Source: Nonlabens ulvanivorans
Lineage (GTDB): Bacteria; Bacteroidota; Bacteroidia; Flavobacteriales; Flavobacteriaceae
Direction of reading: 5' to 3'
Assembly (NCBI RefSeq): GCF_000732625.1
Contig: NZ_JPJI01000032.1
Location: 372,001 to 436,000, forward strand
DNA: 64,000 nt
Shown: positions 27,360-47,302 of the stretch, piece after piece
Numbering within the stretch: position 1 is the first letter of the stretch
Layout of the letters: each line of letters starts with the position of its first letter
Notes under the pieces: model-generated
The model's input: the letters and a program-made list of their open reading frames with translations, nothing else
What the model was told of the DNA's origin: nothing
Database searches by the model: none
Made by a program: the position numbers and the translations under genes

Positions 27360-27429
27360 CAAAATTACTTGTAGAAGAGGCCTCAAATCGGCTATTTTCG
27401 TTAGGTACGAAAGAAGTGTAGACGAATAG
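27360..27429 (-). promoter_or_regulatory. Regulon box and promoter of the GT2 gene
   Basis: The box AAGTGTAGACGAAT (27414-27427, plus-strand reading) is one of five copies in the window. On the minus strand it precedes a -33-like TTTG (27384-27387) and an exact -7 element TAATTTTG (27360-27367), with a 16-bp spacer. Box to -7 spans 68 nt. The predicted leader is about 20 bases. The box also lies 77 bp upstream of the divergent 27506 gene and could serve both. The binding protein is inferred to be the LytTR regulator at 41031-41738. Confidence 0.7.
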
Positions 27430-27505
27430 TAATTTACTGTAGTTCAATGCCAGTGAACGGATGCTGCGGTTGTCATATCTTTATCACATCATTAATTGAG
27501 TAATA

Positions 27506-30500
27506 TTGAAATTGAAAAAAACCACTAATAAACTTTTAATCGCAGCCTTATTTATAGGGATTGCTTTTCATGGTAGTGCTATATTTTTCACATTAGAGAC
27601 CACCTATGATGCTTTAATACATTTGTTCTTTGCAGAACATTATGCGACCAGCTGGTTTGAACCATGGAATTATAAATGGTATACCGGCTTTACAGTGATG
27701 AGCTATCCACCGCTAGTACATCAATGTATAGGATTACTAAGCTATGTAGGTGGATTAAAGTTTGGAATGTTTACCGTTGCTATTATTGCCATCATACTTT
27801 TTATTACTGGAGTTTATCGATTTTCTTTACTCATAACCTCTAGCAGAACGGCTGCTGGGTATGCAGCATTACTAGCGGTATTCTCATCTTCATTTGTAGA
27901 GACGCTTCACATATTTGGTCAATTACCTAGTATAATTGGGATTTCTATTTTAATGCATTCTTTGCCTGAAATATACTTATGGCTCAAAACAGGTAGTTAT
28001 AGATATTACTTTACCTCACTTTCTCTTATCGCTGTAACAGTAACTTCACATCATGTCACTCCTATATTTGGGATGGTATTTTTTATTTTCCCACTAATAG
28101 GTATGGTTATTATGGACCATGCTAGAGAACAAGTTGATTCTATTAAGGAGATTACCTTTAGCGTTTTTTTAAAAAGCTTCTTAAAACTCTTTAAACGTAT
28201 AGTAGGATTTGGGATGTCATCTCTAGTCATTATTATAGGATGTATTTTACCTTATTGGATTAATACCAAGAATAACCCTATAACTCAAGTTCCTATACCA
28301 CACGGCTCTAGAGATAATTTTTTAGAAGTCACTTCATCGGGATTAGTGTTCTTCTTAATCCCTTGGGGTATTCTATTAATTATCTTGCCTTATATATTTT
28401 ATAGGTATTATAGTAAACGATATTTGTTTTTTGGCTTATCGATAACTATACTCACTGTGCTAGGTACTGGAGGAACCACACCTATTCCTAAGATGTTTTT
28501 AGGTGAAAATGCCTTTAATATACTAACCCTAGATCGCTTTACATTATGGGCTTCTATAATGTCTTTACCTATGTTAGGTGAGTTTGCCTATCGTTTTATT
28601 CAAGGAGATATTAAGATTTTAATACAAGAAAAAATAGGTGCCGTTTATCATAGACTCGCTGGCGCTGTTCTGGCTGGTCTATTTATTTTTATGACTATCT
28701 TTACAATGACCTTGGGTTATTTTAGGCCATCGCAACCAGCAAAAATAAAAATGCTTCCTATTGTTAATTTCTTAAGTCAGGACCAGCATGATCACTGGCG
28801 ATACTTAACACTAGGATTTGGAGATCAAATGGCGTGGCTCGCAGCACAAACTAAGGCATTGAGTGTAGATGGTAACTACCATTCTGCTAGAAGGCTACCA
28901 GAACTAACAACTAGACCTATAGAAAGACTAGAAAACTCAAAATTTAAAGGTGTTGAAGGCATAGGTTCGTTACAGCAATTTTTAACCGTTCCAGAAAAAT
29001 ATAATCTCAAATACATTTTTTCAAATGATAAGTTCTATGATCCCATGCTATATTTCTGTGGCTGGCAGCGACTAGAACAATTAGAAAATGGAATCATGGT
29101 ATGGGAAAAAATGAACGTCCCACCATTATCTAACATCTTGCCGCTAGTTGATGTAGCACAGTGGCAAAAAATATTATGGGGAACTATACCTATACTTACC
29201 ATTTTAGTAGCGTTTATTTTAAATATTCAGCTCTTAATTACTAGGATGCTTAAATATAAAGAAACAGCACCGGCAGCATATCTTAAAATTCCAGATCCAT
29301 ACACGCCATTTAAAAGTAATCTACTCCACGTCATTCATGCCTGGTCATTATTACTATTAACCATTACTTGTTATGGAATGTATATTTTTTATCTTAAAAA
29401 TAATACGCAACACAGTCCAGATAATGTAGTACTTGCTTATTACGATGCCATAGATTTTAAAGAATTTGAAAAAGCTCATAGCTTCATTAATCCTGAAAGC
29501 GATCTTCCTTTAGACCAGTACATGTTACAAATATCTGTAACAGATGGCCTATTAAGCTCTTATGCAAAGCTAGACAACATAGAAACTATCACATTAAAAT
29601 CAACAGAAAATACTGTAAGTCTTAAAGTAGATACAGAATGGATTACACCACTTGAAAAAGTAGAGAAAACAGATTATCTTACTGCTATAAAACATAATGG
29701 TAAATGGTATATTGAACCAGAAGAAGTTGAAACCGACCTACCACCTGACCAGCTTTTTACAGAAAATAAAACAGTGTTTTTTAATCAAGGTAGAAGACGC
29801 ATCAGCACAGAGCAAACTTATCATGAAGATATTCTGAAACAACCATCTTTAGAAATCTTAAACGCACGACTAGTAGAGTTTGATCATCATTATTATATCA
29901 TAGGAGAAGTTCAAAATATCGATACCGTTCCGGCAGACGTAGTATTAAATGGCTCTCTTTATGATAATCAAAATAACCTATTAGCCAGCCATAATGCAAA
30001 ATTTGTGGTAAAACATAAGTTAATGCCCAAAGAAATAAGTAGTTTTAAAATCAATTTTGAAGGTATAGCATGGACCAGTATTAACGATTCTATACCTAAA
30101 TCTTTTGATCCCGATCAATATACACCTGTCGATTTTAAAAACAAACCTGCCATTTTCAATATTCAAGCAGCTGGGAATGTAGCAAACACAGACCTCTACA
30201 AAGGCCTATCGATTAGTGACCTTAATATAGATAACGGGAAAATAAAAGGACAACTATTCAATTCTGGTACACAAGAATTGACGATACCTCAACTTATCAT
30301 TTCCTACTTTGACCAAAATAAAAATTTAGTTTGGGTAGATTATAATTTTGTAAAAGATGCAGTAAGACCACAACGCAAACAAAATTTTGAATTCAACCTG
30401 CTTACCGATGCAGAGATTAATGTGCTCAATAATGACATGAGCAACTGCTATGTAAATGGATTACCTAATCAAGACGTTGCAAAAAAAGTAGTCCCAACTA

Positions 30501-30595
30501 GAAATGCCACATTTAGTGCTTTTCAAAAAACGGACAACGCTCTTTATCCTTATATCAAATTAGAAACTAACGCTTATATAGGGAACCCGAAATAA
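27506..30595 (+). CDS. Large polytopic membrane protein, possible GT-C-like enzyme
   Basis: The 1029-residue protein has about 11 membrane helices over residues 8-405 and two more near 560 and 615, then a soluble C-terminal part of about 400 residues. The membrane half begins with a loop carrying YDALIHLFFAEHY and PWNYKWYTGFT, similar to 6-pyruvoyl-tetrahydropterin-synthase-related membrane proteins (PF10131) and GT-C transferases, whose acidic loop residues use lipid-linked sugars. The soluble part contains an NTF2-like segment (about 635-750) and an Ig-like region. The start is TTG at 27506, because an in-frame TGA lies just upstream (27497) and no ATG is near. I infer a polymerase or sugar-transfer role, unproven. 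Confidence 0.65.
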   Translation: MKLKKTTNKLLIAALFIGIAFHGSAIFFTLETTYDALIHLFFAEHYATSWFEPWNYKWYTGFTVMSYPPLVHQCIGLLSYVGGLKFGMFTVAIIAIILFITGVYRFSLLITSSRTAAGYAALLAVFSSSFVETLHIFGQLPSIIGISILMHSLPEIYLWLKTGSYRYYFTSLSLIAVTVTSHHVTPIFGMVFFIFPLIGMVIMDHAREQVDSIKEITFSVFLKSFLKLFKRIVGFGMSSLVIIIGCILPYWINTKNNPITQVPIPHGSRDNFLEVTSSGLVFFLIPWGILLIILPYIFYRYYSKRYLFFGLSITILTVLGTGGTTPIPKMFLGENAFNILTLDRFTLWASIMSLPMLGEFAYRFIQGDIKILIQEKIGAVYHRLAGAVLAGLFIFMTIFTMTLGYFRPSQPAKIKMLPIVNFLSQDQHDHWRYLTLGFGDQMAWLAAQTKALSVDGNYHSARRLPELTTRPIERLENSKFKGVEGIGSLQQFLTVPEKYNLKYIFSNDKFYDPMLYFCGWQRLEQLENGIMVWEKMNVPPLSNILPLVDVAQWQKILWGTIPILTILVAFILNIQLLITRMLKYKETAPAAYLKIPDPYTPFKSNLLHVIHAWSLLLLTITCYGMYIFYLKNNTQHSPDNVVLAYYDAIDFKEFEKAHSFINPESDLPLDQYMLQISVTDGLLSSYAKLDNIETITLKSTENTVSLKVDTEWITPLEKVEKTDYLTAIKHNGKWYIEPEEVETDLPPDQLFTENKTVFFNQGRRRISTEQTYHEDILKQPSLEILNARLVEFDHHYYIIGEVQNIDTVPADVVLNGSLYDNQNNLLASHNAKFVVKHKLMPKEISSFKINFEGIAWTSINDSIPKSFDPDQYTPVDFKNKPAIFNIQAAGNVANTDLYKGLSISDLNIDNGKIKGQLFNSGTQELTIPQLIISYFDQNKNLVWVDYNFVKDAVRPQRKQNFEFNLLTDAEINVLNNDMSNCYVNGLPNQDVAKKVVPTRNATFSAFQKTDNALYPYIKLETNAYIGNPK

Positions 30596-31800
30596 TGAGA
30601 ATTAAAGCTACATCTCTGCTAATAATCATGCTGTTGATTTTATCAAACAGCATGATACAGGATGCCGCTACTCCAGAATTGGGTATATCACCTTTAAATC
30701 ATAAGCTTACCTATACAGCAGGTCATAAAATCAACTTGAAGTTTAAGGGAAATAATACCAGTGCACATGACTTATTATTATCTTACAATCTAGGTAGTAC
30801 AATAGTAAATCCGCAGATGAAAGGCAGCTTTGTTAATTATAAAATCCCTCAGTTTATAAGCAATATGTCTGGTATGGTTAAGTGGCAGTTAGTGAACACC
30901 ACACAACGTGGCCGTTTTACCATCACACCTGTATCCCAAACTGTAAAAATGGAGACCTACATAGGTCCACCTAGCATCATAGCCGGTAATTCTGATTATA
31001 GTATGGCAGTTTCTATACCATTAGACTCACTAGATAATGTTCAAAAAGATGACACCGCAGTTTTATTCAATTATAATAAAGAAACTACTCGCACACAAAA
31101 CCTATCCACAGTGGATAATCTAATCGCCTTCGATTATATATACAGCACAGAAAAGACAGGAAACATTTTATTTGCTGCAAACGTTGATGAACAGTTCAGT
31201 AAAGAATTTACGGTAGAAATTAAAGCCGGATTGCCAGTAGATTTTACGCTTTCGCGAAAGCGTAATCACCCATATGCAGACGGAAATCAACTAGTTACTT
31301 TTTATACTTCGATTCTCAAGGATCGTTATAACAATATCGCAAGTGATGAAACTTTAGTTACATTTTACATAACTAATAGTTCAGGTGCCGTGTTACAAAC
31401 GACTGGAACAACCATTAAAGGCATCGCAACGGCTAGTATGATTCATCCTGAAAAGGCTGAAAAATGGTCTGTAACCGCAGCAGTTGCTGGTATAGCGAGT
31501 AGCGATACGATAACCATGGAATTTGAACAGGTGTTTGATAATTATGATATTCAACTTAATGATGGTAATAGAACCATTACCGTAGGACCCTTAAAAAGTT
31601 TTATGGGACAAATCATACCTGATGGTGTGACCGTAGAATTAAAGATTAAAGGTAAAAACATCAATGAGAATTACTTGAAACAATCTTACAATGGTCAGGT
31701 ACAATTTAAATTAAATCCAGATTTGATACCGAACGGTATTTACAATATTGAAGTTATCACTGGTGGTATCTCACGCAAAATTAAAAATGTAAAACTGTGA
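30595..31800 (+). CDS. Hypothetical secreted Ig-like protein
   Basis: This 401-residue protein has an N-terminal signal peptide or anchor (about 5-22) and a strand-rich mature part that looks like three or four Ig/Big-type domains, including a segment with DRYNNIASDETLVTFYITN typical of bacterial Ig-like domains. I recognise no catalytic motif. Its ATG overlaps the stop of the 1029-residue gene by one base and its stop overlaps the next gene by 4 bp, so the three are one operon. A palindrome copy encodes LSRKR within it. It may be a periplasmic scaffold or glycan-binding partner of the polysaccharide machinery. Confidence 0.7.
   Translation: MRIKATSLLIIMLLILSNSMIQDAATPELGISPLNHKLTYTAGHKINLKFKGNNTSAHDLLLSYNLGSTIVNPQMKGSFVNYKIPQFISNMSGMVKWQLVNTTQRGRFTITPVSQTVKMETYIGPPSIIAGNSDYSMAVSIPLDSLDNVQKDDTAVLFNYNKETTRTQNLSTVDNLIAFDYIYSTEKTGNILFAANVDEQFSKEFTVEIKAGLPVDFTLSRKRNHPYADGNQLVTFYTSILKDRYNNIASDETLVTFYITNSSGAVLQTTGTTIKGIATASMIHPEKAEKWSVTAAVAGIASSDTITMEFEQVFDNYDIQLNDGNRTITVGPLKSFMGQIIPDGVTVELKIKGKNINENYLKQSYNGQVQFKLNPDLIPNGIYNIEVITGGISRKIKNVKL
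31247..31262. repeat. Palindromic repeat CGCTTTCGCGAAAGCG (in CDS)
   Basis: Exact copy, extended to a 22-bp palindrome (31244-31265). It is read as LSRKR, a third reading frame compared with the AFAKA and RFRES copies. Confidence 0.9.
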
Positions 31801-33311
31801 ATAGAACCAATAAAAACATATTGCGTGGTGGGCTTATTGCATTTTATATACTCATAATCGCCTTAATTACACTAGGTATAAGTAGTCTATACAGCTATCT
31901 GAATACTGGAGCAGATCGCAGTACAATGTTACATACCGAGCAAATACAAGAGCGGTATTATATTCCCATTATAGAATGGGACACTACAAGTATTAAAGGA
32001 AGGCCACTAGATGCTACCACCTTAAAGTCTATTGAAGAAGATTATTTAAATGCATGGTACGTAAGAGCGAGAGCATTAAAAAATAATACACTTACTGGTA
32101 TTGAAGATTATTATACCGCAAGTGCTACTACAAAAGTGACTGAACTTATAAATTTCAACTTAAGTAATCAAATAACTGTAGCGATGACTTCTCTAGAGCA
32201 TCATCCCAAGGTGGAATTTTTTAGTGAAGATGGCCAGTTAATCGTACTTACTGACACAGATGTACTCGAGCATGAACAACTTTATAAGGAAGGAGTCTTT
32301 TTAAATAAAACCAGCAGCTTAAACACTTACAAAATCATTTTACTGTTAGAAGATGGATACTGGCGCATCAGACAATTTGTAAAAGTATCTTCACAAGATA
32401 GACTTAAGGAACTTTCTTCAAACCCTTTAAATTTAAATTTAAAAGGCATCAATTATTATCCGAAAAGTTCACCTTGGGACACTTTTGGTACTCAGTTTAA
32501 TAAAGACACTATAGCAACAGATTTTAAAATTATTAAGAACGCTGGTCTTAATAGTATTAGAATATTTGTAGGATATGAGGATTTTGGGAAAGAGCATGTT
32601 TCTGCAGACAAGCTTGAGAAGTTGCGTGTATTATTAGATCAAGCACAACTAGCAGATTTAAAGGTGTTAGTCACACTTTTTGACTTTTATGGCAACTATT
32701 CAGTAAGCGATTGGACTATGACACAACAGCATTTATTACAGATAGTACAAACGGTTAAGGATCATGATGCACTTCTAGGTTGGGATATAAAAAATGAACC
32801 TGACCTAGATTATAGCTCTAGAAATAAAGATGTTGTGGAATCGTGGCTAGAGCATATGATTTATAGAATCAAATTGATCGACGACGCGCATCCCATAACT
32901 ATCGGATGGTCCAACACTTCCAGTGCAGCCGCTCTAGTTGATCAAGTAGATTTTGTCACCTTTCATTATTACGAGCCATTAAATGAGCTTGAAACTGCTC
33001 TAACTGAATTAAAAACAGTTACTGGTCTTAAAAAAATAGCCGTTACGGAGTATGGTGTAAGCTCTTACTCGGGCATATGGAACCTAATGGGATCAAGTGA
33101 AGAAGATCAAGCAAATTATCACAAAGAAGCCCAAGAACTACTCGATAAGAATAAACTTGCGTTCATGTCTTGGACTCTTTATGACTTTGAATCTGTACCA
33201 GAAAATGTTACAGGAACATATCCATGGCGTAGAAACCCACAAAAATTTTATGGATTTCTAGATTCCAGGGGAAAGAAAAAATCTTCTTTTAAATATATCA
33301 GCCAGCATTAA
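31797..33311 (+). CDS. Membrane-anchored GH5-like glycosidase
   Basis: The 504-residue protein has an N-terminal membrane helix (about 11-34), an NTF2-like segment (about 75-200) and a TIM-barrel cellulase-like domain (about 213-500). Likely catalytic residues are the acid/base Glu334 in WDIKNEPD and the nucleophile Glu418 in AVTEYG, as in clan GH-A enzymes; FHYYEP fits the active-site His/Tyr strand. The start is GTG at 31797, overlapping the previous stop as GTGA. It probably works in the periplasm on the polymer made by the locus, as glycosidases do in the Pel and alginate systems; that role is inferred. It converges with the GT4 gene with a 14-bp overlap. Confidence 0.85.
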   Translation: MNRTNKNILRGGLIAFYILIIALITLGISSLYSYLNTGADRSTMLHTEQIQERYYIPIIEWDTTSIKGRPLDATTLKSIEEDYLNAWYVRARALKNNTLTGIEDYYTASATTKVTELINFNLSNQITVAMTSLEHHPKVEFFSEDGQLIVLTDTDVLEHEQLYKEGVFLNKTSSLNTYKIILLLEDGYWRIRQFVKVSSQDRLKELSSNPLNLNLKGINYYPKSSPWDTFGTQFNKDTIATDFKIIKNAGLNSIRIFVGYEDFGKEHVSADKLEKLRVLLDQAQLADLKVLVTLFDFYGNYSVSDWTMTQQHLLQIVQTVKDHDALLGWDIKNEPDLDYSSRNKDVVESWLEHMIYRIKLIDDAHPITIGWSNTSSAAALVDQVDFVTFHYYEPLNELETALTELKTVTGLKKIAVTEYGVSSYSGIWNLMGSSEEDQANYHKEAQELLDKNKLAFMSWTLYDFESVPENVTGTYPWRRNPQKFYGFLDSRGKKKSSFKYISQH

Positions 33312-34509
33312 AAGACATCGCTGTTTTATTTTTACGTTGATTGATTTGCTCAAACGTAGTTAAGTACATTTCAGCTATTCTACTCATAGGATGAGATGTT
33401 GCTGCTTTGAAATTAGCTTTGGCTATAGCTATTCTATGAGCTTCATTAGTTAAGATTGCTTCTATGGAAAGCGCTAGGCTTTCAACACTTGTAGGATCAA
33501 AAAATTCACCTCTATAACCTTCATCTTGTGTCAGTAATGCAAGATCTCCTAAATCTGGCATCACAACAGCTTTACCATAACTACCGGCTTGATGTAAAAC
33601 TCCTGAACTACCTGTTGTAGATGTATAAGGAAAAACAACTACTGCACTTTCGTTGAATAAAACCGGAACCTCAACTTCTTCTACATAACCAGTAAATCTC
33701 AATTGACTCACATTAGCATATTGTTTTTTCACTTGATCTAAATATCCTGGAACATTTGGATTATCCGTTCCTGCAATTACAATTTCTATATTAAGACTTG
33801 TTCTTTTTCTTACTAATTCAACAGCCTCAATCATTGATTCTACCTTTTTATAAGTACCGAATTTTCCGAAAGTCATTACCTGTAAAGGTCCATCTGGAAT
33901 TGTATATGAAGGTTCTTCAGTAGCCACTTCAAAAGTTCCATGAGGTATGAGAACCACATTTTTTGCATTGTACTTTTTTTCTAAGATCTTCACATACTTA
34001 TTCATCGTCACTGCAACGATATCTGCTTGTAAGATAAGCTTAGTCAGCATGGTTCCCACCATACCGTATAATGTCGTTAAAATTTTATTATTAGTAAATC
34101 CAGCACTTCCTAAATCTACTTCTTCTAGAATATTATGTAGTAAAACTATAGTTGGTATTTTTTTTATCTTACATATTAACGGAAGCATAAGACCTAAAGC
34201 TGCTGCCACTTTCTTATCTCCAAACTTCATGAATTGAAGATTAAAAAGAATATTATCAGGTTGAGTTTCATTAATTGCTGCAGTTACATTTTTGATATTC
34301 CAGTAACTATTAAATGACCAACATTCTTTTACAGATATCTTACAACCATTAGCCTCAAAACTTAAATCTTTAGCGTCTTCAGTTTTATCTGTAAGTAACA
34401 CTATTTCCGTAATCTCTTCTTTCAATCTAAAGCTTTTAACTAAATGAAAAGCGTACTCATTTAAAGTTACTTTACTAGGTGGATATGCTGTTACAATGGC
34501 TAATTTCAT
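33298..34509 (-). CDS. Family 4 glycosyltransferase
   Basis: The 403-residue GT-B protein has an N-terminal Rossmann half (MKLAIVTAYPPS) and a C-terminal GT4 half with TFGKFGTYKK, RFTGYVEE and a donor-binding segment around FPYTSTTGSSGVLHQAGSYG. It is soluble and would use a nucleotide sugar in the cytoplasm. With the flippase and the TPR outer-membrane protein it resembles the PelF/PelG/PelB set in role. It is transcribed alone from a promoter carrying the regulon box (34586-34599). The flippase gene upstream ends 116 bp away. Confidence 0.88.
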   Translation of the reverse strand: MKLAIVTAYPPSKVTLNEYAFHLVKSFRLKEEITEIVLLTDKTEDAKDLSFEANGCKISVKECWSFNSYWNIKNVTAAINETQPDNILFNLQFMKFGDKKVAAALGLMLPLICKIKKIPTIVLLHNILEEVDLGSAGFTNNKILTTLYGMVGTMLTKLILQADIVAVTMNKYVKILEKKYNAKNVVLIPHGTFEVATEEPSYTIPDGPLQVMTFGKFGTYKKVESMIEAVELVRKRTSLNIEIVIAGTDNPNVPGYLDQVKKQYANVSQLRFTGYVEEVEVPVLFNESAVVVFPYTSTTGSSGVLHQAGSYGKAVVMPDLGDLALLTQDEGYRGEFFDPTSVESLALSIEAILTNEAHRIAIAKANFKAATSHPMSRIAEMYLTTFEQINQRKNKTAMSFNAG

Positions 34510-34532: not shown

Positions 34533-34600
34533 CAAATTTGGTAAATATTAAAGCTGTTTTAGAGATATTAAGATTGACCGTTATTAAGTGTAGATGAATG
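34533..34600 (-). promoter_or_regulatory. Regulon box and promoter of the GT4 gene
   Basis: The box AAGTGTAGATGAAT (34586-34599, plus-strand reading) lies 77 bp upstream of the GT4 ATG. The -7-like element is CAAATTTG (34533-34540), followed by TGTAATTAAAA, as in the STAS promoter. Box to -7 spans 67 nt. In place of a -33 TTTG there is AAAACAGC (34553-34560), shared with the promoter of the DUF4114 gene. Confidence 0.65.
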
Positions 34601-34624
34601 GCAATTATCTGTAGATAATTGGTT

Positions 34625-35863: not shown

Positions 35864-35884
35864 AACTGTATTTTAAAAGCTTGA

Positions 35885-36272: not shown

Positions 36273-36283
36273 AATAATATCTT

Positions 36284-38467: not shown

Positions 38468-40906
38468 TTAATTAATCAGGAATTTACCTGTGAATTTCCT
38501 ACCTTGATCTGTTATCACATTAAAGTGATACAGACCTGTTTTAAGGTCAGGAGAATGGTATTGAAACTCTACATTACCATTTGTGGTTTTAATGCTCTTA
38601 TAGTCTACGGTACGACCATATAAGTCATAAACGCTTATTTCAATTACTGCGCTCTCAACCGGTAATTGAAAAGTCGTTGTGTTTGTAAATGGATTAGGCG
38701 CATTGTTAAGAGTTAACACCTCATCTTCAACATTTTCTATGGAAAGTGTAGACTGATAATCACCTAGTCTTACATCATTTAAATCGATAGAAAAAGGAAT
38801 TGTATTTGAATAGTCACTAATAACTGAGAATACAATCGTCTTAATATCTGTGTGCGCAAAGGATGCCCCATTAGAGTTTACAAAATCAACAAACGCAATA
38901 TCATAAGTTGTATTAGAGGTGTTTACTGGTATTGTAAATTTAAAGCGGTCACTCCATGGAATTGATGTTTCTGGCACCAAAATGATTTCTACTGGTTGAT
39001 CATTTATAATGTCAAATTGTAGTGCTGTATAAGTAGATACATCTAACGTTTGCTCACCAGGTAATAAATGTCTGAATAAATTCAAGTTTCCTTTTACCGT
39101 TCCCTGAACAGATGGATTACGTTCAATATTATGAACGTTTCCTATCGTGCTAGGCTGTGCATTTTGAACGTTAAAACTAGAAACACTAGCATAATCAGTC
39201 AGGTAATCCATTCCCCATGGGCCGTCTGCTAGATATAAAGCATCTTGTTGTTGATTGCTTATCGATAAGGAGAATCCTATGTCAAATAAATTTCCTGTCT
39301 GAATACTTATCGTCTCATGTAAATTACCAGATAGATTAATGGATTGACTGATTGCCTGTCGTCCAGAAACTTCTGTGGTTGCAAGATCTCCATTGAAGTT
39401 AATACTAGTTGCGCCCGTTTTATTAGTTAACTCTAAATGTAACTGTCCATCCTGGTAATAGCCTGAACTTACAAAAACAGGAGGAATATTGTTTGCAACT
39501 GGTGTACTGATTACCGGTGTCGCTTGATTTAAGTTAGCTAAAATACTGTTCGTTAACGCAAATACTTGAGAATAAGAACTACCCCAAATTTGAAAATTGT
39601 AAAAGTCACCTGATGGATATTGACCTATTTCCCAAAAACTGAAAAGCTCATTTTGATTAACTCCTAATTTTACTGAAAACCCTAGAGCATATTCTGTCTC
39701 ACCAGAAGCTCTAACCAGTTTAGAGCTAATTATTTTATGGCCATTTACAGTAACTGATCTTATATCTTCTAGTACAGAATTATTAAGTCTGTCACAAATA
39801 GCTTTAGAATGATCATAAATAGAACCTGTTGAAGCTGTTGCTAGAACCGCAGCAATTCTATTATTTTGTTCATAATAATCTACTGAAAAAACTTCGGTTG
39901 CATTCGTAACATTAACAAGGTCTTGTGGTGTTGAAACATAAGCTGTTTCAGTACCATACATACCTGTAAGTGGTAAGTAACTGTCTAATTGAGCTGCGTT
40001 AGTACCAGATTTTAATAGCACTTCTGACTGATTAAATTCAGTTTGAGTTTCTTTATTAGATATGAAGTTTCTTTTAGTTCGTTCAAAATTTCTTTTTGCA
40101 ATAAGGCTAGCTAGATCACCATTACTTTCTAGACCACCTGTATTACCAGAACTTACGGTAGATGATTTACTAATGTCTGCATAATTTGAAGTTTTAAGTG
40201 CAGTATATGGATTTGCCGTTACATAAAAGATAGCGTCATTAAAATCGTTATCACAGGATCCATAATCTCTTCTAATATCTTCGAAGCCTAGAATAATTCT
40301 TTCATTTTCTGGATCTTGCAATAGTACATTATGATACTGTAAATCTGCTTGAGCTTCTGGATTAAAGCTAGGATTAGAAAAGAGGTCCCATTGGGCAGTT
40401 CCAACTGCAGCAGTAGATGAATTCCATGCATTTGCTAGAAGTACCCAGCCTATACCTGTTCCAGCGGGAAAAGTTCCGATTTTAACTTTATCTCCTGTTT
40501 GTAAACCACCACCACTATATAACGCTGACACATTAGGGAAGATAATAGTAATTTCTGAGGCAGTAGGTCTGGTCGTTGGTGGATTTGTAATATCATAAGT
40601 GTAGAAACCTAGCACATTTTTGTAACCAGCACCTTCACTAACAAATGTCACCCAAACATCTGCAAGGCTTTCAACGATTATGTCTGTTTCATATCCAGAA
40701 GTGATATAATGTGGATTATATGTAGGTACTGGATATCCTTCTGGTAAGGAGTAACCTATCATATCCATCGTAGCAGTATCAACTACATCACTAGGATTTA
40801 CCAGGTATTGAGGTGTTCCCATAGAATCATAAGTACCTAAGTATTGATAACTCTGACTAAGAACTATATTAGCTAAGAAAAAGACACCGAGTAATAATTT
40901 TTTCAT
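38468..40906 (-). CDS. Secreted DUF4114 protein with T9SS sorting domain
   Basis: The 812-residue protein has a signal peptide (cleavage near VLSQS, residue 18). The DUF4114 domain (about 130-235) ends with GFEDIRRDYGSCDNDFNDA, which has the acidic calcium-site character of the family. A long middle region follows with no motif I recognise, and a C-terminal T9SS type A domain (APNPFTNTTTF... ending GKFLIN). It is exported and probably surface-attached or released. It shares the regulon box with the polysaccharide genes, which suggests a matrix or adhesin protein. Function is inferred only from location and domains. Confidence 0.85.
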   Translation of the reverse strand: MKKLLLGVFFLANIVLSQSYQYLGTYDSMGTPQYLVNPSDVVDTATMDMIGYSLPEGYPVPTYNPHYITSGYETDIIVESLADVWVTFVSEGAGYKNVLGFYTYDITNPPTTRPTASEITIIFPNVSALYSGGGLQTGDKVKIGTFPAGTGIGWVLLANAWNSSTAAVGTAQWDLFSNPSFNPEAQADLQYHNVLLQDPENERIILGFEDIRRDYGSCDNDFNDAIFYVTANPYTALKTSNYADISKSSTVSSGNTGGLESNGDLASLIAKRNFERTKRNFISNKETQTEFNQSEVLLKSGTNAAQLDSYLPLTGMYGTETAYVSTPQDLVNVTNATEVFSVDYYEQNNRIAAVLATASTGSIYDHSKAICDRLNNSVLEDIRSVTVNGHKIISSKLVRASGETEYALGFSVKLGVNQNELFSFWEIGQYPSGDFYNFQIWGSSYSQVFALTNSILANLNQATPVISTPVANNIPPVFVSSGYYQDGQLHLELTNKTGATSINFNGDLATTEVSGRQAISQSINLSGNLHETISIQTGNLFDIGFSLSISNQQQDALYLADGPWGMDYLTDYASVSSFNVQNAQPSTIGNVHNIERNPSVQGTVKGNLNLFRHLLPGEQTLDVSTYTALQFDIINDQPVEIILVPETSIPWSDRFKFTIPVNTSNTTYDIAFVDFVNSNGASFAHTDIKTIVFSVISDYSNTIPFSIDLNDVRLGDYQSTLSIENVEDEVLTLNNAPNPFTNTTTFQLPVESAVIEISVYDLYGRTVDYKSIKTTNGNVEFQYHSPDLKTGLYHFNVITDQGRKFTGKFLIN

Positions 40907-40930
40907 CTTGACAATTGTTTAATTTCATGT

Positions 40931-40998
40931 CAAAACTAAAGGAGATTCAAGGCTGTTTTAATTTAAAACGATGAATCAAAGAGAAGTGTAGATGAGTG
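40931..40998 (-). promoter_or_regulatory. Regulon box and promoter of the DUF4114 gene
   Basis: The box AAGTGTAGATGAGT (40984-40997, plus-strand reading) has a second half-site, GATGAAT (40970-40976), exactly 21 bp from GATGAGT (40991-40997), the spacing expected of LytTR direct repeats. The -7 element TAGTTTTG (40931-40938, minus strand) is an exact consensus match. Box to -7 spans 67 nt. AAAACAGC (minus strand, 40952-40959) is shared with the GT4 promoter. Confidence 0.7.
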
Positions 40999-41030
40999 GT
41001 GTTATTATGAAGTTTAGTGTTTATACCACA

Positions 41031-41738
41031 CTACAGTAAATTTAACCTTTTCATTAATATTGGGCGGTTAGATCTACTGACTGGGATGATGTCTTTTTTA
41101 ATTAAAACACAGTTATCTTCTATATCAATTATCTTACTAACATTAATCACATAAGAACGATGTACTTTTAGAAAAGTATGGTCAGGTAATTTTCCCTCAA
41201 TCTTTTTAAGTGTGGAATGGACTATATAATTTTTAGTTTCTGTTTTAATCATAATATAATCTCCCTTTGCTTCTACGAGATAAATGCTGGGCATATCAAT
41301 CTTAATAAGACGTCTATCGATGTTTACATAAAGTACATCCTCTGTCGACTCCTTCTTAGAAGAATTTGTTTCTTTTTGAGTTGCACTTATACTATTAGAA
41401 GCCTTATTGATAGCCTTGATAAAACGATCTTCAGTAAGTGGCTTTATCAAATAATCTACAATACATTCATATTCAAACGCCTCAATTGCAAAATTAGGAT
41501 CTGAGGTAGTCAAAATAACATTAGGTGGATCTTTAATCGTTTGTATGAAATCTATACCGTTAAAGCCTGGCATATGAATGTCTAGAAAAATTAAGTCTAC
41601 AGTATTTTGATTCAAATATTTCATAGCATCTATCGCATTAGAGAATTCCTCTAATACGTTAAGGCCTTTCACATCACTACAATACTTTGATATAATTAGT
41701 CGAGCCGTAGCTTCATCATCTATAATAATGCATTTCAT
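41031..41738 (-). CDS. LytTR-family response regulator
   Basis: The 235-residue protein has a receiver domain (1-118) with acidic pocket Asp7/Asp8, phospho-acceptor Asp53 in FLDIHMPG and Lys in IKPL. A linker leads to a LytTR DNA-binding domain (about 135-232) with VEAKGDYIMI, HSTLKKIEGKLP and FLKVHRSYVIN. LytTR domains bind pairs of about 9-bp direct repeats about 21 bp apart. It is the last gene of the sensor operon, 10 bases after the Hpt gene, and is the natural output for the box found upstream of five transcription units nearby. Confidence 0.95.
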   Translation of the reverse strand: MKCIIIDDEATARLIISKYCSDVKGLNVLEEFSNAIDAMKYLNQNTVDLIFLDIHMPGFNGIDFIQTIKDPPNVILTTSDPNFAIEAFEYECIVDYLIKPLTEDRFIKAINKASNSISATQKETNSSKKESTEDVLYVNIDRRLIKIDMPSIYLVEAKGDYIMIKTETKNYIVHSTLKKIEGKLPDHTFLKVHRSYVINVSKIIDIEDNCVLIKKDIIPVSRSNRPILMKRLNLL

Positions 41739-41748
41739 TCTTTACCTG

Positions 41749-42066
41749 CTATAAAGTTTTAAGATACTCTGTCATACTATCTAATATTTTTTCAAAAGAT
41801 TGAGAATGATCAAAATTTTCATCAAGAATCTCATTTTCATATTGTGCAGCCAGTGCGTATCCTTTCTCAAGTCCCAAGATACTTATTTTGTGCTTTAATT
41901 TGTGAACTGCTTCAGCAATTTCTTCAAGATTTTTTGCTTTTAGAGCATTATAATAAACCTCTTTTTCTGATGGGAACTCTGTTTTAATAACAGTTAACAA
42001 CCTCTCTTCAAAAGCTTTATCTCCACGACACAAACTATCAATATATGACCTATTTGGTAATTCCAT
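41749..42066 (-). CDS. Histidine phosphotransfer (Hpt) domain protein
   Basis: The 105-residue protein is a stand-alone Hpt four-helix bundle. The phospho-accepting His is probably His55 in AVHKLKHKISILGL, where the usual HxLKG reads HKLKH. Such proteins pass phosphate between receiver domains in phosphorelays. Its ATG overlaps the stop codon of the kinase gene upstream by one base, and the LytTR gene follows after 10 bases, so it likely sits between the stand-alone receiver (46779-47195) and the LytTR receiver. Confidence 0.88.
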   Translation of the reverse strand: MELPNRSYIDSLCRGDKAFEERLLTVIKTEFPSEKEVYYNALKAKNLEEIAEAVHKLKHKISILGLEKGYALAAQYENEILDENFDHSQSFEKILDSMTEYLKTL

Positions 42067-43118
42067 TATTTCTTTGGTAAAGTAAAATAAAATGTAGTTC
42101 CTAGATTTAATTGAGATTCAACCCAAATCTCTCCTTGATATAATTCTACAACTTTTTTAACAATTGAAAGTCCTATACCAGAAGAGTTTACATTGTTTTC
42201 AAGTTTTTGAAAGACATTGAATATTTTTTCAAAATACGGCTTATCAATTCCTAATCCATTGTCTTTAATTGAAAACTGCCAATGACTGGATAATTCCTCA
42301 ACATTTATTTCTATTAAACCATTCTCTTTGTCATTGTATTTAATTGCATTATCAATTAAATTTTGAAATAATTGCTGTAGTCGGTATTTATCACCTTGTA
42401 CTACAGGTAATGGATTTAATAGAACAATTTCCACATGGTCTGGAACGTATACAATACTAAGGATTGTGTCAATTAACACCTGTAAGTCTACATCGTATAA
42501 CAACACCTTTGTTTTTCCAATTGTTGAATACTCTAAAATACCATTGATTAAAGTATCCATTTTTTGAACATTACTTCTTATCAACTCTAGATTATCAATG
42601 CCTTTCTTATCTAGCGTGGCTGAATAATCTTCACTGATCCATGATGCTAAAGCATCAATACTACGTAAAGGGGATTTCAAATCATGAGAAACCATATGTG
42701 CATAATCGCTCAGTTCCTGATTTTGATGTGAGAGTTCACTTAATAACTCTTCTCGTTGTTGGTTAAATGCAAGTATTTCTTTCGTTTGCCTGTCTATTAA
42801 ATTAACTAGACCAAAGCTGTCGGAGGTATCATCACTTGAGCGCCCATCGTCTGTTAAATCATAACTTTTCAATGTGTTAATGACATTATTAAGCTTATCA
42901 ATAACTAAGGTTTGAGAATCTGCTCTTTCTTTTAATTCTTTATTTGCTTCAAACAGTTCTTGCGAACTTATAGACATCGCTCTTTGCAGCATAGCAAATT
43001 GATCATCATGCGTATTGTAAGAACTATTAATCGCGTCAAAGAAAAGTTTAAAATCTGGGTGTTGGGCTAACTCTTCACCTAGATACTTCCTAATTTGACG
43101 TTTAAGTAAAGAGTTCAT
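42066..43118 (-). CDS. Soluble histidine kinase, FIST/NosP-associated
   Basis: The 350-residue kinase has no membrane helix. An N-terminal helical region (1-140), beginning LLKRQIRKYLG, is followed by the phospho-acceptor His145 in MVSHDLKSPLRSI and an ATPase domain with NLIDNAIKYN, KDNGLGID and GIGLSIVKK. The gene overlaps the FIST gene by one base upstream and the Hpt gene by one base downstream. The N-terminal region is of the kind I associate with kinases next to FIST proteins and would be the contact site for the sensor. No receiver domain is attached. Confidence 0.92.
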   Translation of the reverse strand: MNSLLKRQIRKYLGEELAQHPDFKLFFDAINSSYNTHDDQFAMLQRAMSISSQELFEANKELKERADSQTLVIDKLNNVINTLKSYDLTDDGRSSDDTSDSFGLVNLIDRQTKEILAFNQQREELLSELSHQNQELSDYAHMVSHDLKSPLRSIDALASWISEDYSATLDKKGIDNLELIRSNVQKMDTLINGILEYSTIGKTKVLLYDVDLQVLIDTILSIVYVPDHVEIVLLNPLPVVQGDKYRLQQLFQNLIDNAIKYNDKENGLIEINVEELSSHWQFSIKDNGLGIDKPYFEKIFNVFQKLENNVNSSGIGLSIVKKVVELYQGEIWVESQLNLGTTFYFTLPKK

Positions 43119-44251
43119 TATTCGCTTAATAAAGTAATCGTCATGGTCTGATTATGTAATTGACATTTCATTTCTTCATGAAAAGGAGCAATCTCTCCAT
43201 AAGAGTAAAATCCAGAAATCACAACATCTTGACCTAATACATTGCGCACTTCTTCAATCTCTTCCTCTACTCTTTGATCAAGAACTAATTTTCTACCAAT
43301 ACAACTTACTAAAAGCGCTAATTGAGAAGTGTTTTCTCTAACATCATCTGCCTGCCTAGCAGCTCTTTCTGCCGCATTTGCTATTTGATCGACGTTAGTC
43401 ATCATTAATTGAACTTTAGAGTTTTCAGGAATATCGCCAGCTAAAACCATGGCATTGTCATCTTCTTCTATATTCAAAATGGATCTAACTATAGATTGAT
43501 TTTGATTTTCAATTTTCACGTTGAGAGGATATAGTAAAGCTGCTCCTGGGAGTTCTTTTGATTTTTCCCCTAAATATTTTTTATATAAATCTAGCGCAGG
43601 CATATCATCTAACTCGTATAGTATATTGCCTTTAGATTTAGTAACAATTCTTTCTGGCCCAAATGGAATCCATCCACCATGTATAGAGAATGTAGCTTCA
43701 AAACTTTCTCCATAAAACCCTATGGCCACTATTTCTCCTGATTTTGGATTACAGTTATATCCACAAATCGTTTTTTCAAATCTAGCATCATCTGCACATA
43801 AGCCACCTGTAATCAATAAGTCATCTCCATGAACAGAATTCATTCCTAATGTGAGTTGAGTTCCATTAATGAAACTTCCTTCAGATATAATAAAAACATG
43901 TTTTAAATCTTTTGCATCAAATTGTTCTATAAGATGTTTTCCTGTTTTAAAACTGTCTTTTTGCTCATTGAGCACATTTGCCGTTTTAATCGAGAAACGA
44001 CTTTTCTCGAACTCAATAGCAGTTATAGAGATTGATTCATCATTAACATTATCATCCATGATATCACCACTAGTAGAACCAAGTACGATATGAGCATCAG
44101 GATACATCGATTGTACTTCTTCAAATATAGTAGGTGATTCTAGTAGGAATCTATTTCCAAAAGCTAACACCAAAGGATTGTTTAAAGTCTTTTGATCACC
44201 TATATTTTTCCAAGGTTGATTTTTTAATTTTAAATGCTGATTAATAATCAT
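43118..44251 (-). CDS. FIST-domain sensor protein (NosP-type candidate)
   Basis: The 377-residue protein carries an N-terminal FIST domain (about 28-220, with VLGSTSGDIMDD and GGLCADDARF) and a FIST_C domain (about 225-360, ending GFYSYGEIAPF and CQLHNQTMTITLL). FIST proteins are signal-input proteins; the NosP group binds heme and senses nitric oxide through an associated histidine kinase. I cannot tell from the sequence whether this one binds heme, but its neighbours (H-NOX, kinases, Hpt) are those of NosP loci. It overlaps the kinase gene by one base. Confidence 0.88.
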   Translation of the reverse strand: MIINQHLKLKNQPWKNIGDQKTLNNPLVLAFGNRFLLESPTIFEEVQSMYPDAHIVLGSTSGDIMDDNVNDESISITAIEFEKSRFSIKTANVLNEQKDSFKTGKHLIEQFDAKDLKHVFIISEGSFINGTQLTLGMNSVHGDDLLITGGLCADDARFEKTICGYNCNPKSGEIVAIGFYGESFEATFSIHGGWIPFGPERIVTKSKGNILYELDDMPALDLYKKYLGEKSKELPGAALLYPLNVKIENQNQSIVRSILNIEEDDNAMVLAGDIPENSKVQLMMTNVDQIANAAERAARQADDVRENTSQLALLVSCIGRKLVLDQRVEEEIEEVRNVLGQDVVISGFYSYGEIAPFHEEMKCQLHNQTMTITLLSE

Positions 44252-44254
44252 TTG

Positions 44255-46234
44255 TTATTTTTTTATTGTGAAAAAGAATGTTGTTCCTTCTCCAACCTTA
44301 CTTTCTAACCAAATTTTACCTTGATGTAAATCGACAATTTTCTTAACAATTGACAACCCTATACCTGTTGAATCTTTGTTTTTATTTAAAGCGTGAAATA
44401 TTTTGAATATTTTATCATGGAATGCTGGGTCAATACCTATACCATTATCTTTAATCTTAAATTTATAATGAGTAGTAAGCTCCTCAAAACTTACCTCAAT
44501 AAGACCTTTATCCTTATCAATAAATTTAACGGCATTACTTAATAAATTTTGAAAAAGTTGATTAATCTTAGTTCTATCTCCATTAATTTCTGGTAGCTCA
44601 CCATTCAATTTGATTTCAATATGACTGGGCACATAAATCACTTTAATTAAATCAATTAATAATTCATTACAATTAATTTTAGTAAACTCTTTATTAGTTG
44701 AATTGAGACTAGAGTAATCTAGAATATCTCCGATAAGCTGTTCCATTTTCTCTAAAGTTTCTTCTATTAGAGAAATATTTGTTAGGCTAGTATCATCATA
44801 TTTATCAAGATTATCCTCCTTTAACCAGTTCACTAGGGCATATATACTACGTAATGGACTCTTTAAATCATGAGATACGATATGAGCGTACTCATGTAAC
44901 TCATCATTACTCCTTGCTAATTGTTTGAGTAACAACTCTTTCTGAATCTCTAAACTTTTTAAATCTGTTATGTCTAAGTGAATCCCTATAGAGCCAGTCA
45001 CATTACCTTCAATATCATAGTTGGGAGCACCACTAATCAACCAGTGGCGTTCTTCATTATTTTTAATTCTTACAGCAATCTCATAAGAACTAGATTCTCC
45101 TTTAATTCTTTTTCTAGTTTGCTCTTTAAAAACATGGATATTTTCTTCTTCTAGAAAAAGAGATGACGCTTTTTTTCCTAATACTTCCTCCTCAGAATAG
45201 CCACTCATCTCAGTAAAACTTTGATTGACCATCAAAATATTCTCATTAGTATCTACCTCTACCAGCCCTAAATTCATATTAGCAATAATGCTACTATACT
45301 TTTGCTTTTGAGTCTCTAGACTTTTACGGTAAGAACGTTTTAAAGTAACATCTTTATAAGACCATAGATGTCCTTTATAAGAACCACTCTCAATAATTGG
45401 AATAAAATCCCTTTCAAGAATCCTACCGTTCACCATAATCAACTCATCACCGGTCACCATTTCCTTTCTACTTAACACTTCGTCAACCCTTTTAATAAAA
45501 TCCTGAGAATTAACAAATAACTCCTTTGAATTTTCAGCTGCTTCAGAACAGTCAATACCAACCATTTGCTCTGGTGTCATAGGAATCTCAAAAAACTCAC
45601 AAAATCTATTATTTGTTAAAACGATCTTGCGATTTTCGTCTTCTAATAAAACAGCATTTTCAAGATTTAAAATTAATGTAGAAAGTCTGTTTTCAGACTC
45701 AATGAGTCTCTTCTCATCTTCATTGCTTTTGGTAATATCACGCACAATACCTTGAGCAGCCTTAGCTTTACCTTGAGCATCGTAAATGATGCTACAGTTA
45801 ATATGAACTAGTTTTGTTTGATTATTTTTGGTTCTTATTTTAACGTGTACATCTGTTAAGGAGCCATGTTTTATCAATTCTTGAAAACTGGCCATCACGT
45901 TATCATACTCTGTAGGATGAATAAGATTCATGATGTTAATGGACTCTTTTTCAAAGTCTGCTTCAAGTAATCCTATTGCAGGCTCATTCATCTTTAACAC
46001 ATTACCTATCAAGTCAGTAACCACATAAGCATCAACAATATTTTCAAAAACACCATTTAATTCTGATGTTTTTTCATCTATTAATGATTCTAATTGCTGG
46101 TTGGAGTGCTGTAACTTTTGAGTAAGCTCATATAATTCTGCTGCCTTTTGTTCCAGGATTTTTTCAGCCTGTTTACGAGCAGCTTTTTCCCTATCGAGCG
46201 CACGTTTTAATATTTCGACATCAGAACTACTCAT
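44255..46234 (-). CDS. Multi-PAS soluble histidine kinase (H-NOX-associated)
   Basis: The 659-residue kinase starts with a coiled coil (about 5-60, DREKAARKQAEKILEQKAAE). Three PAS-like domains follow (about 62-170, 182-300 and 312-430), then His455 in IVSHDLKSPLRSI, and an ATPase domain with NLLSNAVKFI, KDNGIGID and GIGLSIVKK. It has no membrane helix. Its ATG overlaps the H-NOX stop codon by one base, the usual arrangement for an H-NOX and the kinase it controls. The last two domains are close in sequence to the kinase at 42066-43118, suggesting duplication. Confidence 0.93.
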   Translation of the reverse strand: MSSSDVEILKRALDREKAARKQAEKILEQKAAELYELTQKLQHSNQQLESLIDEKTSELNGVFENIVDAYVVTDLIGNVLKMNEPAIGLLEADFEKESINIMNLIHPTEYDNVMASFQELIKHGSLTDVHVKIRTKNNQTKLVHINCSIIYDAQGKAKAAQGIVRDITKSNEDEKRLIESENRLSTLILNLENAVLLEDENRKIVLTNNRFCEFFEIPMTPEQMVGIDCSEAAENSKELFVNSQDFIKRVDEVLSRKEMVTGDELIMVNGRILERDFIPIIESGSYKGHLWSYKDVTLKRSYRKSLETQKQKYSSIIANMNLGLVEVDTNENILMVNQSFTEMSGYSEEEVLGKKASSLFLEEENIHVFKEQTRKRIKGESSSYEIAVRIKNNEERHWLISGAPNYDIEGNVTGSIGIHLDITDLKSLEIQKELLLKQLARSNDELHEYAHIVSHDLKSPLRSIYALVNWLKEDNLDKYDDTSLTNISLIEETLEKMEQLIGDILDYSSLNSTNKEFTKINCNELLIDLIKVIYVPSHIEIKLNGELPEINGDRTKINQLFQNLLSNAVKFIDKDKGLIEVSFEELTTHYKFKIKDNGIGIDPAFHDKIFKIFHALNKNKDSTGIGLSIVKKIVDLHQGKIWLESKVGEGTTFFFTIKK

Positions 46235-46773
46235 TAAGTTTTATGGATAGTAAATTTCACTTCAGTTCCATCTTCCTTAATTTTCTCTATTTGAATGTTA
46301 GAAGTCATTTCAAAGTGTGCAAATGTTCTATTCATTAATCCCAAACCAAAATGATGCATTGCTCGGCTAGACATATAAATCATAACAAGATGTTGATCAG
46401 ATTTTTCAAGAACCTCAAATGTTGGTAATTCGGCATCTGGATATATCTTTCTTACCTCTATATGAATATGATTTTCTATAGAAGAAAGCATCTCAATAGG
46501 ATCTTTATAAGTAGCTAAAAGTCCAGGATAACTATTTTCAATAACATTAAAAAAATGTTCTCCATAAGCTAGCAGTAATTGATCAATACTTAATCCAGTA
46601 TTTGCACTCAAATTCTGGATGAGTTGCAGCATCTCAGCAAAGCTATACGTACCTATAGACGTGTAGACACCATTAGAAGGCAGCTCTGATTGTTCAATAA
46701 TTTGATCAACCATCCCTAACCCAAATTTCTCTTCAACAAGATCAAGAAACTCTGTAAAAACTATTCCTTTCAT
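46234..46773 (-). CDS. H-NOX heme nitric oxide sensor
   Basis: The 179-residue protein is a complete H-NOX domain. The proximal heme ligand is His104 (by alignment with His102 of the Caldanaerobacter protein) and the heme-propionate motif YxSxR is present as Tyr133, Ser135, Arg137. The distal Tyr140 that stabilises oxygen in some members corresponds to Phe142 here, and Trp9 to Phe9, so the pocket lacks a hydrogen-bond donor and should prefer NO over oxygen. It would inhibit or activate the kinase encoded directly downstream (one-base overlap). Five bases separate it from the receiver gene upstream. Confidence 0.95.
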   Translation of the reverse strand: MKGIVFTEFLDLVEEKFGLGMVDQIIEQSELPSNGVYTSIGTYSFAEMLQLIQNLSANTGLSIDQLLLAYGEHFFNVIENSYPGLLATYKDPIEMLSSIENHIHIEVRKIYPDAELPTFEVLEKSDQHLVMIYMSSRAMHHFGLGLMNRTFAHFEMTSNIQIEKIKEDGTEVKFTIHKT

Positions 46774-46778
46774 ATTAC

Positions 46779-47195
46779 TTAGGCAATAAATAATTCATTA
46801 ATACTCCAGTATGACATTAATCTAGAGATCTTCTCTACATACTCTTCATACTTCAAAGGTTTCAATACATATCCAGCAATACCTAAATTATAACAAGCTA
46901 GTAAATCTCTCTGATTATTTGACGTTGTTAAGATAATTGTTGGTATATATTTTAACCTATCATCCTTTTTTAGGATAGATAGAAATTCTATCCCGTTGAT
47001 TTTAGGCATGTTTAAATCTAGCAAAATTATATCAGGAAGCTGATCTTTTTTTTCTAAAATTGATAAGGCCGTCTCCCCATTATTAGCTTCAACAATACTA
47101 TGTTTCTCATTTAAAGTTGATAACGCTCTATGCATTTTCATTACTTCAATAGTATCATCTTCAATGAGTAAAACCTTTAATCTACGTGCTTTCAT
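46779..47195 (-). CDS. Stand-alone receiver (CheY/Rcp1-like) response regulator
   Basis: The 138-residue protein is a single receiver domain: acidic pocket Glu12/Asp13/Asp14 (LLIEDD), phospho-acceptor Asp60 in LLDLNMPKING, Thr/Ser in LTTSNNQRD and Lys in LKPLKY. It lacks an output domain. It is the first gene of the operon, so it is transcribed together with the H-NOX, both kinases, FIST, Hpt and LytTR genes. As neither kinase carries a receiver, this protein can supply the intermediate receiver step before Hpt. Confidence 0.93.
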   Translation of the reverse strand: MKARRLKVLLIEDDTIEVMKMHRALSTLNEKHSIVEANNGETALSILEKKDQLPDIILLDLNMPKINGIEFLSILKKDDRLKYIPTIILTTSNNQRDLLACYNLGIAGYVLKPLKYEEYVEKISRLMSYWSINELFIA

Positions 47196-47212
47196 GTCTC
47201 TTAATATAATAG

Positions 47213-47302
47213 CAAATTAATGTGAATAATAAATTTGCTCAGATTATATCGATGACTCCACGTGTATCTATCGACGGATGACGTTTAAGTGTCGACGAAT
47301 GG
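47213..47302 (-). promoter_or_regulatory. Regulon box upstream of the sensor operon
   Basis: The box AAGTGTCGACGAAT (47287-47300, plus-strand reading) lies 92 bp upstream of the receiver gene start. A second half-site, TCGACGGATG (47271-47280), lies exactly 21 bp from TCGACGAATG (47292-47301), the clearest direct repeat of the five sites. The -7 element is less clear: TTAATTTG (47213-47220, minus strand) is a near match but farther from the box than at the other sites. The site suggests autoregulation. Confidence 0.6.

Follow-up and report, generated by a model that had tools for sequence, protein, structure and literature searches.

Which regulator, if any, joins a polysaccharide locus, a secreted surface protein and a two-component sensor operon in a 64-kb stretch of the Nonlabens ulvanivorans genome (positions 372,001 to 436,000 of contig NZ_JPJI01000032.1, here called the window)? 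The question arises from a 14-bp box that the first-pass annotation of this DNA had found in five copies and read as the mark of a local regulon under one regulator, with the LytTR protein encoded at 41031-41738 as the candidate. Our best explanation, to which we give a rough probability of 0.83, is that this LytTR response regulator binds an operator of which the boxes form the strongest arm, and that it would activate the polysaccharide, surface-protein and its own genes.

The box AAGTGTAGACGAAT, which reads ATTCRTCKACACTT on the coding (minus) strand, occurs without mismatch at 27414 and 36258, with one mismatch at 34586 and 47287, and with two at 40984. All five copies are indeed intergenic when checked against the list of open reading frames (ORFs) and stand in one orientation, on the plus strand as written, each ending 76-94 nt ahead of a minus-strand start. 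The fifth, at 47287, precedes the sensor operon; the genes behind the other four are:
26502 to 27335, minus strand: GT2 glycosyltransferase (Pfam scan)
33298 to 34509, minus strand: GT4 glycosyltransferase (Pfam scan)
34625 to 36163, minus strand: flippase (Polysacc_synt_3) and STAS protein, the STAS match of 22.1 bits being just under the cut-off of 22.6
38468 to 40906, minus strand: DUF4114 protein with a type IX secretion system (T9SS) sorting tail

The earlier statement that the window holds no other full copy stands for copies with at most one mismatch, but it had missed a two-mismatch copy at 38744, which lies within the DUF4114 gene and was dismissed as coding. Comparable matches to this copy (38744-38757) occur at the same gene position in four relatives (G001, G003, G016, and G021), and it is probably conserved as coding sequence.

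When 300 first-order Markov sequences of 64 kb were used as the chance model, 0.03 copies with at most one mismatch were expected against 4 observed, and 0.6 with at most two mismatches against 6 observed (38744 counted), and none of the 300 simulated windows had as many in either case. The count at up to three mismatches is not convincing (13 vs 7.7 expected, reached in 15 of 300 simulations and in 7 of 100 shuffles). A regulon would be doubtful if coding DNA held similarly close copies by the hundred, but none such abound in the whole genome of the source Nonlabens (3,211,390 bases in 45 contigs, 3.2 Mb): ATTCRTCTACACTT with at most one mismatch gives 7 matches, five of which are the window boxes, vs 2 for the reversed control. 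The loose box alone is uninformative because at up to two mismatches it matches 77 times vs 73 in the control. A composite pattern (box, N42-50, and YANNTTTR) finds exactly the five window sites in the genome and nothing in the control; as it was derived post hoc from those sites, the telling part is the absence of further matches. At 47287 this pattern caught a CAAATTTA that was afterwards judged not to be the -7 promoter element.

The 14-bp box is real but belongs, as one arm, to a longer operator. When agreement with the consensus of the box, including the observed alternatives, was scored at 126 offsets 8-70 bp to both sides of the five boxes, the best two offsets were -21 and +21 (summed matches 47 and 45 vs a mean of 25.3, standard deviation 5.6). 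These are imperfect direct repeats about 12 bp apart with a period of about 21 bp, the arrangement of LytTR-type sites. The listed box is the middle arm at four promoters and the distal arm at 47287, where the promoter lies one repeat further on and a repeat at -21 is absent (6 of 14 letters). Downstream of the repeats comes the Bacteroidota -7 element, TAnnTTTG, which in Flavobacterium psychrophilum occupies -12 to -5 (PMC9723704). The elements of the five promoters, with their agreement over the 14 letters, are:
27435 to 27448, minus strand: GT2 promoter, upstream repeat at -21, ATTGAACTACAGTA (12/14 allowed letters)
27414 to 27427, minus strand: GT2 promoter, central repeat, ATTCGTCTACACTT, upstream of the GT2 gene
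27393 to 27406, minus strand: GT2 promoter, downstream repeat position at +21, ACCTAACGAAAATA (9/14)
27360 to 27367, minus strand: GT2 promoter, -7 element, TAATTTTG (composite pattern)
34607 to 34620, minus strand: GT4 promoter, upstream repeat at -21, AATTATCTACAGAT (11/14)
34586 to 34599, minus strand: GT4 promoter, central repeat, ATTCATCTACACTT, upstream of the GT4 gene
34565 to 34578, minus strand: GT4 promoter, downstream repeat position at +21, degenerate (7/14)
34533 to 34540, minus strand: GT4 promoter, -7 element, CAAATTTG (composite pattern)
36279 to 36292, minus strand: STAS-flippase promoter, upstream repeat position at -21, TTTCATCATAAGAT (9/14), overlapping the divergent TPR start at 36284
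36258 to 36271, minus strand: STAS-flippase promoter, central repeat, ATTCGTCTACACTT, upstream of 34625-36163
36237 to 36250, minus strand: STAS-flippase promoter, downstream repeat position at +21, ACTAAACGAAATAT (9/14)
36204 to 36211, minus strand: STAS-flippase promoter, -7 element, CATATTTG (composite pattern)
41005 to 41018, minus strand: DUF4114 promoter, upstream repeat position at -21, ACTAAACTTCATAA (9/14)
40984 to 40997, minus strand: DUF4114 promoter, central repeat, ACTCATCTACACTT, upstream of the DUF4114 T9SS gene
40963 to 40976, minus strand: DUF4114 promoter, downstream repeat at +21, ATTCATCGTTTTAA (9/14)
40931 to 40938, minus strand: DUF4114 promoter, -7 element, TAGTTTTG (composite pattern)
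47287 to 47300, minus strand: sensor-operon promoter, box ATTCGTCGACACTT, the distal repeat there
47266 to 47279, minus strand: sensor-operon promoter, next repeat at +21, ATCCGTCGATAGAT (11/14), the counterpart, by alignment, of the central repeats listed above
47245 to 47258, minus strand: sensor-operon promoter, possible third repeat position, weak (TCATCG displaced by one base)
47213 to 47220, minus strand: sensor-operon promoter, probable -7 element, TTAATTTG (position aligned with relatives)

The -7 element of the sensor operon can also be read as TAATTTGC (47212-47219), a better fit to TAnnTTGY than to TAnnTTTG. TAnnTTGY is motif SM5 of F. psychrophilum (PMC9723704), and an alternative sigma factor at this promoter is possible, judged by these letters.

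The candidate regulator is encoded by the last gene of the sensor operon, whose order is receiver, H-NOX, PAS kinase, FIST, kinase, Hpt, and LytTR:
46779 to 47195, minus strand: single-domain receiver (Pfam domain scan)
46234 to 46773, minus strand: H-NOX protein (PF07700, 7.4e-40; matches to PDB 6bde and 6bdd)
44255 to 46234, minus strand: PAS histidine kinase (Pfam domain scan)
43118 to 44251, minus strand: FIST-domain protein, NosP-like (PF08495, 5.3e-41)
42066 to 43118, minus strand: histidine kinase (Pfam domain scan)
41749 to 42066, minus strand: Hpt phosphotransfer protein (PF01627)
41031 to 41738, minus strand: LytTR response regulator with REC and LytTR domains, the proposed binder (PF00072, 1.7e-18; PF04397, 2.8e-18)

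A Pfam scan of the operon proteins found no DNA-binding domain other than LytTR. The receivers carry LDIHMP at 52 and LDLNMP at 59, the kinases SHDL, and the Hpt protein HKLKH, which we take to be the phospho-residue motifs; the HNOB domain of the H-NOX protein has His104 and, at 133, YMSSR, which we take to be the haem histidine and the YxSxR motif typical of this family. Among solved structures the H-NOX protein matches 6bde (6.8e-90) and 6bdd (4.6e-89). For the LytTR protein, the top 60 of 138 structure rows are matches to its receiver domain. Since 6BDD is the H-NOX of Kordia algicida (PMC7356049), the operon protein is, by sequence similarity, a close relative of this H-NOX of solved structure.

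An alignment (A1) and a profile (R1) were built from 40 promoters, and R1 was trained on sequences that include four window promoters and, of the fifth, its proximal portion. In the source genome the five window sites rank top with R1. The LytTR protein is found at 96 to 61% identity in 15 of 22 same-genus genomes and in G023, with gene order much alike (in G012 it is counted from a 44-aa fragment at a contig end). The box lies upstream of the sensor operon in 16 of 17 rows examined (score at least 12.8), and no box was found there in G025, from another family of the order. Across the 23 relatives, the 16 with LytTR have a best R1 match of E ≤ 2.2e-6, and the 7 without have a best of E ≥ 0.0019 or none, a comparison that is circular on the LytTR-positive side because those sites trained R1.

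A sample of 199 Flavobacteriaceae genomes from 185 genera, with the four training genomes left out, is therefore the fairer test; the LytTR and R1 searches had the same settings and are taken to cover the same genomes. The LytTR gene (E ≤ 1e-60) is present in 85 of the 199, many of them marine, and an R1 site (E ≤ 1e-3) in 84; 78 genomes have both, 7 the gene only, and 6 the site only. Leaving out the training genomes (81 with LytTR and 114 without remain), sites occur in 74/81 vs 6/114 at E ≤ 1e-3, 66/81 vs 1/114 at 1e-4, 63/81 vs 0/114 at 5e-5, and 57/81 vs 0/114 at 1e-5. Two genera (g19 and g27) are each split between a genome with site and LytTR and a genome with neither. A LytTR operator should have its LytTR partner in the genome, and such a protein is indeed encoded alongside the sites.

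The element is also conserved in place. Family-wide loci were taken from a scan of genome contigs (the best 80 matches, each locus spanning at most about 10 kb either side), and counts refer to 77 of them (L111-L187); R1 on L108-L187 served just to see that sites exist, and sites were counted with a nucleotide profile made from A1. Hpt is found in 77 loci, H-NOX in 74, DUF4114-like proteins in 65, TPR in 56, flippase in 45, and GT4 in 39. The profile gives 217 matches on the LytTR strand and none on the opposite strand at E ≤ 0.01 (317 vs 1 at E ≤ 1). The 217 matches form 208 groups in 73 of the 77 loci, and no group falls within sequence that aligns to a window protein; no site was found in L112, L159, L180, and L183. 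Within 400 bp of the 208 groups, the next match is the receiver for 59, a DUF4114-like protein for 36, GT4 for 30, STAS for 20, flippase for 19, and GT2 for 1, the remainder being followed by another ORF (37) or by nothing (6). Ten of the other downstream proteins were scanned and comprise two CAP-domain proteins, two STAS proteins, a UDP-glucose/GDP-mannose dehydrogenase, an outer-membrane efflux protein, a Wzy_C protein, one with DUF6923, DUF4114 and a T9SS tail, and two without a match. A boxed small CAP-domain protein follows LytTR in L122 (11041-11622) and L158 (10986-11567), and a dozen more loci have boxed ORFs of 163-165 aa in this position.

The claim of a shared regulon is thereby supported by an element conserved before the same genes across the Flavobacteriaceae, and its attribution to LytTR, argued from sequence, gains from the 21-bp geometry, the 199-genome co-occurrence and the sole DNA-binding domain in the operon. 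The word "local" fits this genome but does not hold throughout. In G002 (a single 3.9 Mb contig) the polysaccharide cluster, near 2.98 Mb, is remote from the sensor operon, near 20 kb, yet it retains a site ahead of the flippase and another some 370 bp upstream of GT4, with none found before GT2. In G010 a partial site (L258 3276-3308, E 3.4e-6), distant from the regulator, precedes a T9SS surface protein that stands apart and carries ice-binding-like and DUF6923 domains.

The geometry recurs in 210 anchored promoters, with the consensus CC-ATTCGTCTACACTA-AA, in which conservation of the box itself is inflated by the choice of sites with the profile. Of the 210, 37 have a second copy scoring at least 6 bits at -21 and 29 have one at +21, vs a mean of 0.03 at other offsets; the profile that chose the promoters includes the +21 repeat and not the -21 repeat, and only 7 anchor pairs are 21 bp apart. 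TTNRTC occupies the -21 arm in 68/210 (elsewhere a mean of 0.56 and a maximum of 4), and G017 reads ATTCGTCGACACTT-N7-ATCCGTCGACACTT. YANNTTTG lies 45-47 bp past the box in 94 promoters and one repeat further (66-68) in 18, which places the operator upstream of the core promoter at a fixed distance, as in activator-type LytTR sites. A TTG matching the -33 consensus, at a spacing of 17-23 from the -7, occurs in none of the 40 A1 rows, which are related rather than independent and were counted without a chance control. Recent duplication of one promoter was rejected as a source of the likeness, since outside the repeats, the CC before and the AA after the box little is conserved.

Several observations weigh against our explanation. 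Several window promoters have poorly matching outer repeats (7-9 of 14 letters), and exact YANNTTTG stands at neither expected distance in 98 of the 210 promoters. R1 matches the 47287 site only partially (2.1e-4), close to the next match (C23:109431, 3.1e-4), which was dismissed because it covers model positions 25-78 only and lies antisense inside an ORF. At E ≤ 1e-3, 7 of 85 LytTR-positive genomes lack a site and 6 of 114 LytTR-negative genomes have one; part of the co-occurrence is, moreover, joint loss, because gene and site travel in one cluster. The FIST protein is matched in only 52 of the 77 loci and lacks a match in G006 and G021, and the window protein, with clear FIST domains, scores 59.7 bits against the NosP model NF041558, short of its cut-off of 450.

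The mechanism that we propose would run as follows. The H-NOX and FIST proteins would control the two kinases, and phosphate from the operon's own relay would pass, presumably in the usual four-step scheme, from kinase to lone receiver to Hpt to LytTR. Phosphorylated LytTR would bind direct repeats of 21-bp period (two helical turns), usually at three unequal positions that stop about 10 bp before the -33 place. Counted from the predicted transcription start, the central repeat would occupy about -72/-59 and the one after it -51/-38, the region that most LytTR activators contact. Because the promoters have a good -7 and no -33 TTG, they probably require an activator. By analogy with the LytTR sites described in PMC11347149, this geometry and the missing TTG are what one expects of a LytTR operator whose promoter depends on an activator, and they point to activation rather than repression. 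LytTR would thus turn on the GT2, GT4 and STAS-flippase exopolysaccharide genes, the T9SS surface protein and, as positive feedback, its own operon. Nitric oxide is the presumptive signal, and the phosphorelay is perhaps tuned by it. We regard it as an even bet that this holds family-wide, with two haem-type sensors (H-NOX, and FIST in most loci) feeding one phosphorelay whose LytTR triple-repeat output switches an exopolysaccharide cluster, T9SS surface proteins and itself, i.e. a nitric oxide-to-matrix switch in Bacteroidota with no cyclic di-GMP (c-di-GMP) output step.

It is unlikely that LytTR, once on the boxes, acts chiefly as a repressor or that it additionally shuts off the divergent TPR/outer-membrane gene at 36258, although only 12 bp separate that box from the divergent start at 36284, the upstream repeat position overlaps that start, the spacing (-26) is conserved in five relatives (G001, G003, G016, G021, and G012), and CoxC, a LytTR protein, is a repressor (PMC11347149). 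CoxC sites overlap the -35 (PMC11347149), whereas the present repeats end upstream of it and lack a -33 TTG behind them, as expected of activated promoters. Box and upstream arm (36258-36292) extend to the divergent start, and, as far as the letters tell, the site may act on this gene as well.

Still less probable is that a transcription factor encoded elsewhere binds the repeats and counts the LytTR operon among its targets. The sensor operon is itself boxed, and the source genome has 12 further LytTR-protein matches that possibly include binders of similar sites, but the site tracks this LytTR gene over the 199 genomes, and the LytTR-minus Nonlabens keep other LytTR-protein matches (33-36% identity, nearly full length) yet have no good site. 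The LytTR-like repeat geometry, and an operon in which no other DNA-binding domain was found, speak for the operon's own regulator too.

The box might instead be the -10 of an alternative sigma promoter of the extracytoplasmic function (ECF) type, CGTCTA presumably resembling ECF -10 elements, and by eye TGAAC, TAAAC or TTGAC, ECF -35-like, stands 17 bp before CRTC at 27414, 40984, and 47287 (3/5). We consider this very improbable: in the 210 promoters AAC stands there in 31, TTGAC in none, and TTNRTC, the upstream-repeat arm, in 68, so that the AAC forms look like repeat variants, while repeats flank the box on both sides and the -7 element lies at a fixed distance 45-47 bp downstream. An antitermination leader like the ops/JUMPstart signals that precede polysaccharide genes would suit the target genes and a box 76-94 nt before their starts, but is scarcely credible, because a conserved -7 between box and gene leaves the box untranscribed from that promoter, and the 19 window proteins scanned with Pfam include no NusG-like protein, the other window proteins being outside that scan.

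The divergent genes of the locus are unboxed:
27506 to 33311, plus strand: a 1029-aa protein without family match, a Big_1-like protein and a GH5-like hydrolase
36284 to 38389, plus strand: TPR protein, weakly PgaA-like

The 1029-aa protein (27506-30595) has no match in Pfam or NCBIfam. Its gene accompanies the polysaccharide cluster in relatives and is present in 0 of 7 LytTR-minus Nonlabens, from which joint loss can be seen to contribute to the co-occurrence.

If the LytTR operator is as proposed, the analysis gives a concrete operator, regulator and target set for the signalling operon, and the profile makes the regulon readable from many genomes. The papers listed by a literature search included no description of a Bacteroidota LytTR operator, no target genes for the Kordia algicida H-NOX, and no description of the regulon, most subscription journals being outside its coverage. 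LytTR operators elsewhere are 9-bp direct repeats 10-13 bp apart, mostly upstream of the -35 in activated promoters, with three repeats for RcoM1 and CoxC (PMC11347149). The present sites resemble those of AgrA, RcoM1 and CoxC in that direct repeats, spaced by two helical turns, stand close to the promoter (PMC11347149), and RcoM1 and CoxC likewise respond to a gas, carbon monoxide; they differ in the repeat sequence and in a separate phosphorelay rather than a fused sensor. AlgZR of Pseudomonas aeruginosa, in which AlgR is a LytTR response regulator, also controls exopolysaccharide (alginate) genes. The AlgR core CCGTTCGTC (PMC4064291) agrees with the core here, CCATTCGTC, in 8 of 9 letters, a resemblance only and not an AlgR-regulon core; AlgR sites are, according to that article, not necessarily ordered direct repeats, whereas here 21-bp tandem repeats stand at a fixed distance from the -7, with other sensor proteins. 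In the H-NOX/HahK-SypF-syp system of Vibrio fischeri, H-NOX and a kinase, likely via an Hpt domain, affect transcription of exopolysaccharide genes (PMC8738867); the locus described here has another regulator, its operon also encodes a FIST protein and a further kinase, and LytTR is the output. H-NOX and FIST proteins adjoin histidine kinases in the H-NOX/NosP c-di-GMP systems as well (PMC8738867, PMC12570481), whereas this operon ends in LytTR rather than in a c-di-GMP enzyme.

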